Source: Nitrospira sp. MA-1 (GTDB taxonomy: Bacteria > Nitrospirota > Nitrospiria > Nitrospirales > UBA8639). Taken from it: a DNA stretch of 64,000 nucleotides. The DNA lies in contig JAQJDB010000007.1 of assembly GCA_032139905.1 (NCBI GenBank), positions 1,550,001 through 1,614,000 of the forward strand, given 5' to 3'. Both the position numbers and the translations under genes were made by a program. Positions within the stretch are counted from its first letter, which is position 1; the number at the start of each line of letters is the position of its first letter. Of the stretch, positions 42,334-45,271 are shown in pieces. The notes beneath the pieces were generated by a model, which saw only the letters and a list, made by a program, of their open reading frames with translations, did not search any database and was not told where the DNA came from.

Positions 42334-43389
42334 TTATCGAAATGGTTTAATTTCGTATTCGGTGAACAGCTGTCTGGTGTCTGGATGAAATATATAGCCT
42401 TTGCCTTGGAGAATATCCTGGTTTTTGAATAATGGAACGAGTTGCCCTGTGGGATGGAGATACAGCCCTCGAAGAGGAACGGATCGTTTGGCATGTCGGA
42501 TTAGATGGCAGGGAATAGGCCTGATGGCCTGTAGCCATTCGGCCAAATCTTGAGGGTTCCCGATAGATGCAGAGAGGAGGAGGAGCCGTGCCTGTGAGGG
42601 ACACAAGATAATCGTTTCCTCCCACACCACCCCTCGTTCTGGATCAGCGAGGTACTGCGATTCATCCAGAATGACTAACCCCAGAGTATGCAATCGCAAA
42701 TCAATCTCCCCACTGGCGGCATCATAGAATAAATTTCTCAAAATTTCTGTGGTCATCACCAATAGCGGAGCTTGGGCATTGTCCCTCCGGTCTCCGGTCA
42801 ATATCCCGACTTGATCCGGTCCAAAAAGTTGGGTGAATTCCATAAACTTTGTATTCGACAATGCTTTAAGTGGAGAGGTGTATATCACCGTTTGATTGAG
42901 TGCCATGGCCTGTTTGATTGCTTGTATGGCGACATAGGTTTTTCCACTTCCCGTCGGAGCGCTGACGATGACATCGGAATGCGCCAGATGCTCTACCGCT
43001 TCGGTTTGCCATAGATCAGGAACAAAGGGCTGAGGTTTAGGAACACCAATTCCTTCCAAAATTTCCTGAAGTGTAATCGATGGCTGGGAAGGGCCGAAGT
43101 TGGGCTTTCCCTTCATTTGTCGATTTTTTGCTTGAAAGGGGGAAGCGGGCTTTTGATGGCGGGCAGCGGCGCGGACTTCCTGTGCGGCCACTCGTTCCTG
43201 TCGAGTGGTCAGTATTTGTTGTAACTCAGTTTCAATGGCCAGAATCTGGTCGGGAGGGAAAGCCAGCATTAATTCAACAAGCCGATGTTTCCCGAGGCGG
43301 AAATGTCGATGGATGCGGCCTTTGGCCATATGATGCAAATATTTCACCGGTAAACTCTGGAGTTCATGTTTGAGATCATCAAAATGCAT
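42334..43389 (-). CDS. Ski2/HelY-like helicase, N-terminal (RecA1) half, separate gene
   Basis: The 351-residue product is only the first half of a superfamily 2 helicase. After a basic 110-residue N-terminus it has a Q-motif-like LWQTEAVEHL (near 127), Walker A SAPTGSGKT (143-151), motif Ia TSPLKALSN, MTTEILRN, DESQ as the Walker B/DExH variant (242-245) and motif III SAS (273-275). It ends in a strand-rich linker just where RecA2 should begin. The RecA2/DSHCT half is a separate gene directly upstream (43412-45271), 22 bp away. A weak GGGGAC site precedes the ATG. Alone it could not unwind RNA, so a heteromer with the upstream product is inferred. Confidence 0.86.
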   Translation of the reverse strand: MHFDDLKHELQSLPVKYLHHMAKGRIHRHFRLGKHRLVELMLAFPPDQILAIETELQQILTTRQERVAAQEVRAAARHQKPASPFQAKNRQMKGKPNFGPSQPSITLQEILEGIGVPKPQPFVPDLWQTEAVEHLAHSDVIVSAPTGSGKTYVAIQAIKQAMALNQTVIYTSPLKALSNTKFMEFTQLFGPDQVGILTGDRRDNAQAPLLVMTTEILRNLFYDAASGEIDLRLHTLGLVILDESQYLADPERGVVWEETIILCPSQARLLLLSASIGNPQDLAEWLQAIRPIPCHLIRHAKRSVPLRGLYLHPTGQLVPLFKNQDILQGKGYIFHPDTRQLFTEYEIKPFR

Positions 43390-43411
43390 GGCGTTGGGTC
43401 CCCATCTTTGG

Positions 43412-45271
43412 CTATGGAAGTTCCTGCAAGACTTCCCGTCGCATGGTCACCATCGCGGAGTGGGCGGTATCGGCCAAGCCCGGGTGAGTGATCTTGAGTC
43501 CATATATTTGAGAGAGAAATTCCAAAGTCCTGGCTAAGAGGCGATACACGTCCCCTTCGGCCATGGATGTGGAGCGAACCAGTGAGGCCCAAGTGAGCTG
43601 AGGATTCCCGATCCAGCTTTCCACCAGTGCGGCGACATCTGAGCGTAACAAGGGTGGGGGTTCATACGGACTCAATGAATCAGCCACCGCCCGCACTTGC
43701 GTCAACATCGTAGCCAAGCCGGATGGGAGCCGCATGTAGGATCCCGGACGATCATCATCATGGGAAATACTCGCCATGATGCCTGCCAACAATCCTGGAG
43801 CAATGCCTGAGAAGGCATCCATACGTATGAGTTCTGTTATGAGCAAGGAATGGTTAATACGAATGAGTCGAGCCCACTCTCCGTCAGCAGTGAGTTGCGA
43901 GGAGGCGGTGATATATCCAAATTTGTGGAGCACATCGGCTTTTTGTTGAAATCGGTGCCACAATCCGTCACGGAGTGCTTGAATCGTTTTGGTTAATTGC
44001 TGGGATTTCTGTCGGAGTTTCGAAGCCAGGGGAAAGTCTTTCTTACATGCCGAGTGGGACGGGCAGGTGGGACAGGGAAATTCCTCTGTTAATATTTCTG
44101 CAAGGAGCGGGTCGTCTGTTTCCTGGGTTTCCGGCAAAATGGGGACTGTCGGCAGACGCGTGGGCAATTGGGAAAGCTCTTTCTTGAGTTGAGAGAGGAC
44201 CTGTGGCTGACACCAGGGAATAGTGCGAGAGGGCTGAAACTCAAACACCCGGTCGTAAACCTGAGTGACCGAATGAGCGGGACACTCACCCAACGTGCCT
44301 TTGGCCCGAATCACGGATAACATAGGGGCAAAGGTTCCACGGCTTCGATACTGACGAAGTATAATCGCCGGACCTTTCGGCAGTCCGATAAGGCGACCTG
44401 GAGTCAGAAACGGCAGACAAGCAGTCAAGAATGGCGTGTCATTGGTGACGATGGGATGTCGGTGCGCTTTGCGTCGACGGGCCAGATCAAAGCCCTTCCA
44501 TTGAGTGATCCAATCGGCGCATTCCCTGGGCCCGTAGGGTTCCAATTGTTCTTTGATCTGATCCAGATGATCTTGATGGATGCCCGATCGTTGATTCAGC
44601 TGAAATTGCGCAAAGCTTTTAGCGAGCAGCCCCTCAATTTGATCCAGCGAATGGGCCTTTAGCAGATTTAGGACCATGGGGTAGGACACCACGAATTGAC
44701 TGTCAATCGGTTCCGGATAGCCTGTGAGTCCTTTGCCAAGGATGTGCAAGTCAATGTACGGGGAGGGGGTAATGACCACGACTCCCACCAAATCTTTTCC
44801 CCGGCGGCCTCCGCGCCCGGCCAATTGTTGAATTTCGCTGTTCGTCAAATCCGTGAAATCCTGCGATTTGCGGACGCTGGATTGGGTAATGACGACGGTA
44901 CGTGCCGGGAAGTCGACCCCGGCGGCCAAGGTCGTTGTGGCAAACACGGCATCCAACAATCCCAGGCGCATGAGTTCTTCAATCGCAATTTTCCAGGATG
45001 GGAGATGCCCTGCGTGATGAGCTGCGACTCCAAATTCTTGCACAACCGGAATGAGAGGGTGATGGGTAATACTCGGGAAGTCTTTGGTGAATTTCTCCAG
45101 AAATTCCCGGATGGCCTCTGAGCGTTGAGAGGACATCCTGGCTGAACTGTGGGCGAAAGTATCAATGGCCTCATCGCAGGCCCGGCGAGATGTCAAAAAG
45201 ACAATCGCCGGAGTCAACCGGTGCTGGCGGAGAATTTCTATGAGATCAACGGGATGAATGGCTGGTGGCAT
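43412..45271 (-). CDS. Ski2/HelY-like helicase, C-terminal (RecA2-DSHCT) half, separate gene
   Basis: The 619-residue product begins at the RecA2 domain: PAIVFLTSRRACDEA (residues 21-35), FGVAAHHAGHLPSWK, motif V TTTLAAGVDFPART (112-125) and motif VI QQLAGRGGRRG (148-158). A long helical C-terminus follows, with a Cys cluster C400-x2-C403-x5-C409 like that of HelY, then a DSHCT-type end (ITELIRMDAFSGIAPGLLAG). No Walker A or B is present. The upstream frame has a stop at 45311-45313 and no other start, so the protein truly begins at RecA2. It precedes, rather than follows, the RecA1 half at 42334-43389. Confidence 0.88.
   Translation of the reverse strand: MPPAIHPVDLIEILRQHRLTPAIVFLTSRRACDEAIDTFAHSSARMSSQRSEAIREFLEKFTKDFPSITHHPLIPVVQEFGVAAHHAGHLPSWKIAIEELMRLGLLDAVFATTTLAAGVDFPARTVVITQSSVRKSQDFTDLTNSEIQQLAGRGGRRGKDLVGVVVITPSPYIDLHILGKGLTGYPEPIDSQFVVSYPMVLNLLKAHSLDQIEGLLAKSFAQFQLNQRSGIHQDHLDQIKEQLEPYGPRECADWITQWKGFDLARRRKAHRHPIVTNDTPFLTACLPFLTPGRLIGLPKGPAIILRQYRSRGTFAPMLSVIRAKGTLGECPAHSVTQVYDRVFEFQPSRTIPWCQPQVLSQLKKELSQLPTRLPTVPILPETQETDDPLLAEILTEEFPCPTCPSHSACKKDFPLASKLRQKSQQLTKTIQALRDGLWHRFQQKADVLHKFGYITASSQLTADGEWARLIRINHSLLITELIRMDAFSGIAPGLLAGIMASISHDDDRPGSYMRLPSGLATMLTQVRAVADSLSPYEPPPLLRSDVAALVESWIGNPQLTWASLVRSTSMAEGDVYRLLARTLEFLSQIYGLKITHPGLADTAHSAMVTMRREVLQELP

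Follow-up and report, generated by a model that had tools for sequence, protein, structure and literature searches.

Two adjacent genes of Nitrospirales encode the halves of one Ski2/HelY-type helicase in swapped order

INTRODUCTION

The ATP site of superfamily 2 (SF2) helicases is built from both the RecA1 and the RecA2 motif sets. In the DEAD-box proteins, domain D1 takes up ATP, and the joining of D1 and D2 creates the ATPase site (PMC4383044). To our knowledge, every described member of the Ski2/Mtr4/HelY group carries both RecA domains on one chain, with RecA1 first. HelY is the actinobacterial Ski2-like representative with a DSHCT domain, and the eukaryotic exosome helicases Mtr4/Dob1 and Ski2 are also single chains, in none of which a split or a swapped order is known. 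The split reverse gyrase of Nanoarchaeum equitans is likewise a helicase-containing enzyme made from two genes. In that enzyme the cut separates the helicase from the topoisomerase.

Here we describe a helicase of the order Nitrospirales (nitrite-oxidising Nitrospira and related bacteria) in which, unlike the situation in N. equitans, the cut lies within a single motor and separates its two RecA domains. We found no earlier account of the pair in the open-access literature that we searched and, as far as this limited search allows us to say, a swapped split helicase has not been described. The two genes lie in a 64,000-nucleotide stretch of the Nitrospira sp. MA-1 genome (contig JAQJDB010000007.1, positions 1,550,001 to 1,614,000), referred to below as the window.

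RESULTS

Two genes encode the halves of one helicase

The RecA2 gene is transcribed first and the RecA1 gene second, both from the minus strand (Table 1), and the two are out of frame with each other. Within the gap between them, a Shine-Dalgarno-like GGGGA sits 9 nt ahead of the RecA1 ATG. Because the RecA2 frame is open for merely 13 codons before its ATG (open frame 632), no RecA1 domain can be hidden in front of it; the RecA1 gene has 19 open codons upstream. In Pfam searches, the RecA1 protein matched DEAD at residues 128-280 (2.1e-22) and nothing beyond the linker, while the RecA2 protein matched Helicase_C at residues 79-158 (3.3e-6) and no Walker A family.

Table 1. Features of the split helicase locus, with coordinates as positions in the window
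Feature	Position	Strand	Details
Gene 1, RecA2 + putative stalk/beta-barrel + winged helix/ratchet (DSHCT) subunit	43412..45271	minus	619 aa
Gene 2, RecA1 subunit with N-terminal helical domain	42334..43389	minus	351 aa
Intergenic gap between the two genes	43390..43411	minus	22 bp, read from the sequence
N-terminal 62-aa four-helix domain of the RecA1 protein	43204..43389	minus	AF2 pLDDT 90.5, pTM 0.73
Motif I/Walker A, APTGSGKT	42937..42960	minus	RecA1 residues 144-151; P145-T151 invariant (n = 39)
Motif II, DESQ	42655..42666	minus	RecA1 residues 242-245; D242, E243 and Q245 invariant
Motif III, SAS	42565..42573	minus	RecA1 residues 273-275; S273, A274 and S275 invariant
Motif VI, QLAGRGGRRG (arginine-finger motif)	44798..44827	minus	RecA2 residues 149-158
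Cys cluster, CPTCPSHSAC	44045..44074	minus	RecA2 residues 400-409; C400, C403 and C409 invariant
DSHCT (NUC185) domain, PF08148	43427..43897	minus	RecA2 protein residues 459-615, 8e-20

Joined as RecA1 followed by RecA2, the two proteins aligned colinearly and without interruption to residues 31-901 of HelY (the Nonomuraea gerenzanensis copy, L113) with a score of 732, against 355 and 406 for the single halves. In the genomic order, RecA2 followed by RecA1, only one half aligned (score 406). The first residues of the RecA2 protein, MPPAIHPVDLIEILRQHRLTPAIVFLTSR, match HelY just ahead of motif IV (SRPPDRVQVIEKLDSEGLLPAITFIFSR), and the linker is covered by the RecA1 tail, so no part of the HelY frame has been lost at the cut. 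HelY has the same domains and the same internal sequence as the joined halves, including PCHGC at the place aligned with the Cys cluster. It differs in being one chain with DEVH and SAT, whereas the split pair is two chains in reversed gene order with DESQ and SAS, and the N-terminal 62-aa domain of the pair did not align to it.

By sequence, both halves matched Mtr4/Dob1 and Ski2 best among PDB entries. Mtr4 was also the best match of each half in a family-profile search of the PDB (185.9 bits for RecA1, 176.5 bits for RecA2), and the profiles matched successive parts of yeast Dob1, RecA1 ending at residue 332 and RecA2 beginning at residue 397 (6lqs numbering). We conclude that the two genes are the halves of one Ski2/HelY-type helicase, divided at the linker between RecA1 and RecA2 and placed in swapped order.

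The original prediction, made from sequence alone, had claimed just this split and swap, and the coordinates, domains and HelY alignment bear it out. Its further claims also held: a 22-bp gap, with Walker A, DESQ and SAS on the second gene and no Walker motif on the first; no alternative start or read-through upstream of RecA2; and a HelY-like Cys cluster and DSHCT-like end on the RecA2 protein.

The source genome (4.76 Mb, 99.98% complete) carries each half in single copy. A search of it revealed no further copy of RecA1 or RecA2 and nothing resembling a full-length homologue; the second-best RecA1 match scored only 22.6 bits and lay in an unrelated ORF.

The swapped pair is conserved across the Nitrospirales

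A search of 211 Nitrospirales genomes found 203 with RecA2 and 197 with RecA1. Both halves were present in 196 genomes, neither in seven (G004, G015, G151, G363, G371, G374 and G391) and one alone in eight. Contig ends explain seven of these eight singletons (G254, G047, G370, G387, G377, G272 and G381). The sole unexplained case is G194, a 99%-complete draft that keeps RecA2 and in which no RecA1 was found; a polysaccharide/sugar-nucleotide gene region directly follows its RecA2 gene.

In 62 closely read genomes (18 genera in families f1, f2 and f3), RecA2 lies immediately upstream of RecA1 in the same orientation. They include named Nitrospira sp. and Nitrospirales MAGs as well as single-contig genomes (among them G011, G019, G029, G030, G036 and G054). 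The gap between the genes ranges from -4 to 195 bp across the order, and all three frames occur. In the window's genus it is 22 to 23 bp in nearly all members examined and 178 bp in one. A 4-bp overlap of the ATGA or GTGA type, the usual sign of translational coupling, occurs in seven genomes, three from f3 and each of the four f2 genomes that were read.

Not every member keeps the genes side by side. In the f3 genome G232 both are intact on the same contig 25 kb apart, with sugar-nucleotide/polysaccharide genes between them. In family f4, RecA1 and RecA2 are both retained at separate loci, and the RecA1 protein (about 274 to 295 aa) keeps all helicase motifs. These separate loci show that adjacency is dispensable and that the two products, if they pair, must meet in trans.

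The split is therefore neither chance nor a local assembly error but is ancient and conserved through the whole order, so that the check proposed with the original prediction, a search for the swapped order in relatives, came out positive. Two outcomes would have refuted that prediction, an assembly rearrangement at the locus and full-length partners elsewhere in the genome, and neither was met.

Several local features were recorded during this survey. In two f3 loci (L115:4757-6289 and L116:4641-6173) a GlgC-like nucleotidyltransferase-like gene (MKNIFTMVLAGG) overlaps the start of RecA2 on the same strand, which suggests that the operon extends further there than it does in the window. Two contigs, L015 (G006) and L018 (G005), break off within RecA1 at the same point, the codon that aligns with residue 187, a coincidence that might hint at a common repeat or insertion. 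Fragments of RecA1 on opposite strands at the extreme end of a G042 contig (L093:18576-19166) are probably an assembly artefact. A seemingly broken RecA2 in G360 was rejected, the break being a stretch of N in the scaffold sequence rather than biology.

Each protein holds half an ATP site, and both are under purifying selection

We judged residue invariance over 39 RecA1 and 42 RecA2 sequences. The core residues of motifs I (PTGSGKT), Ia, Ib, II (DE-Q) and III (SAS) were all invariant in RecA1. In RecA2, FATTTLAAGVDFPAR (F110-R124) was invariant throughout, as were the G and R residues of QxxGRxGRR; the invariant residues of motif VI are Q149, G152, R153, G155, R156 and R157. With motifs I to III invariant on one protein and V to VI on the other, each alone holds half of an ATP site. 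Two marks set this lineage apart from HelY and G226: motif II is DESQ or DEAQ rather than DExH, and motif III is SAS rather than SAT.

The domain content was equally uniform, with Pfam DEAD in 39/39 RecA1 proteins and both Helicase_C and a C-terminal DSHCT (PF08148) in 42/42 RecA2 proteins. For the stalk and KOW/beta-barrel insertion that Mtr4/Ski2-type helicases carry between RecA2/winged helix and DSHCT, searches at E <= 0.1 matched the MTR4-like stalk (PF21408), a possible likeness to the single-chain eukaryotic helicases, in 31/42 RecA2 proteins and the barrel (PF13234) in 5/42. Strands were seen at RecA2 residues 293-342 in a model of moderate confidence.

Both halves are under strong purifying selection, with dN/dS values of 0.03 to 0.19 for the within-order pairs in which it could be computed. 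Pairwise distances of the RecA1 and RecA2 proteins correlated across 40 genomes (r = 0.86). No control pair was available for this mirror-tree comparison, and we regard it as weak evidence.

The RecA1 protein has an N-terminal domain of its own

Neither sequence nor fold searches gave a convincing match for the N-terminal 62 residues of the RecA1 protein. In this domain, which is absent from f4, G33, K34 and R36 are strongly conserved. Relative to RecA2, the RecA1 N-terminal region evolves about 2.7 times as fast and the RecA1 core at 0.47 of the rate. Foldseek returned six weak matches, none significant, including the Rho N terminus and CARP2. Rho and CARP2 contain helix-extended-helix units, and on these weak fold matches the domain could be a SAP/Rho_N-like nucleic acid binder, an idea that remains unproven.

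Fused forms outside the order

No fused form appeared within the order among the listed matches. Of 296 genomes sampled across the phylum, 95 members of the order had DSHCT, and the only other occurrence was in G226, which belongs to the same class; a search of the whole class agreed with this. G226 (family f11; L112:4855-7095) has a fused RecA1-RecA2-DSHCT ORF in canonical order with an open frame of 746 aa. This helicase is one chain with DECH and SAT, in contrast to the two chains with DESQ and SAS of the split pair. It is separated from the split form by a very long branch and was not shown to be its fused ancestor; it was probably acquired separately. Its gene adjoins one for a heavy-metal P-type ATPase. 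No homologues were found in viral contigs, and plasmid records contained only fused HelY-type or unrelated helicases. The genome survey was confined to Nitrospirota and did not cover other phyla.

DISCUSSION

A proposed two-subunit motor

As far as we know, described Ski2/Mtr4/HelY members are single chains with RecA1 first; the split pair departs from this, being two genes with RecA2 first across the order. We think it likely that the pair is an obligate two-subunit RNA helicase of the Ski2/Mtr4/HelY type with its ATPase formed in trans; pairing, the trans ATPase and RNA unwinding, which in this group is ATP-driven and runs 3'-5', are all inferred. The RecA1 protein (Q motif, I, Ia, Ib, II and III) would bind ATP, and the RecA2 protein (V, VI, stalk/barrel, winged helix/ratchet and DSHCT) would contribute the arginine fingers and form most of the path taken by the RNA. 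The subunits would associate noncovalently, forming the ATP site at their interface, and ATP cycling would drive RNA along the channel as in Mtr4, guided by the DSHCT and arch domains. In most members, cotranscription with overlapping or closely spaced cistrons would produce both subunits together. A role in RNA processing or decay is an inference.

The original prediction had also put forward an obligate heteromeric RNA helicase. That claim is well supported indirectly but has not been shown. Its basis is the co-retention of the genes, the divided ATP site and the selection on both. An AlphaFold model of a natural in-frame RecA2-RecA1 pair (L049) reached a pLDDT of 64 and a pTM of only 0.35, and no docking could be read from it; stops were treated as residues, and the alignment had only 29 rows, three of them paired. 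Foldseek with this model returned Mtr4/Ski2, but at high rmsd. Unlinked RecA domains would make a weakened contact that needs extra affinity, and we identified no source for it.

Motifs II and III couple ATP to RecA2. It is conceivable, although speculative, that the DExQ and SAS changes relate to work across two chains, and catalytic detail may differ, motif II being DESQ and not DExH.

A bolder reading, possible but no more than that, is an SF2 motor whose ATP site comes from two freely dissociating proteins, with assembly as the control point. The RecA2-DSHCT protein would sit on RNA or on a nuclease, and RecA1, which has its own possible nucleic acid-binding N-terminal domain, would join it and switch the motor on.

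Origin and alternative explanations

We favor as the likely origin, again by inference, that a fused gene was duplicated in tandem and that the first copy then lost RecA1 and the second RecA2-DSHCT. Such reciprocal loss would be expected to leave the halves in swapped order. A competing origin, also compatible with a two-subunit motor, is relocation of the 5' half, the separate loci of f4 being the older state. In its favor, the RecA2 tree places f4 together with f2 close to its base, and f4 RecA1 lacks the N-terminal domain. Against it, f2 has tightly overlapping swapped genes and the root is unreliable. The tree was rooted with HelY and G226, whose branches (8.7 and 10 changes per column) are too long to resolve the order of f4 and f2. 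On balance we incline against relocation without setting it aside.

Among alternatives to a two-subunit motor, the strongest is that the proteins have separate jobs, RecA1 acting as an ATPase stimulated by RNA or as a module used by other proteins, and RecA2-DSHCT as an RNA-binding scaffold without ATPase activity. The original prediction had allowed that one half might have such a job. In support, the genes are apart in f4 and G232, G194 may carry RecA2 only, and RecA1 has an N-terminal domain of its own. However, the motif V and VI residues of RecA2, which make sense only facing RecA1-bound ATP, are invariant, and the presence or absence of the two genes goes together, lone cases being nearly all at contig ends. 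We consider separate jobs unlikely, though not excluded.

A full-length chain made by read-through, frameshifting, or protein or RNA splicing is more doubtful still. In L049, L053 and L061 the RecA2 stop is followed by an in-frame RecA1. Spacing and frame nevertheless vary freely, which excludes read-through or frameshift fusion as a general explanation; the two genes of the window are out of frame with each other, those of f4 and G232 lie at a distance from each other, a fusion product would place RecA2 ahead of RecA1, and neither protein has an extra domain of the splicing type.

That the genes are decaying remnants of a broken helicase could be argued from the loss of both in a few genomes (G151 and others), but the low dN/dS, the invariance of all motifs and order-wide retention all but exclude it. 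Assembly rearrangement of an ordinary fused gene has nothing to support it beyond the draft state of many relatives and is practically ruled out by the same order in 62 independent assemblies, single-contig genomes included.

Implications

RecA1 and RecA2 are usually treated as one inseparable motor. In the Nitrospirales they are two gene products in reversed order, throughout the order. The pair is a clear case of gene-level permutation, and the two genes together provide a marker for the order. It also offers a natural system for testing how far helicase action needs a covalent linker.
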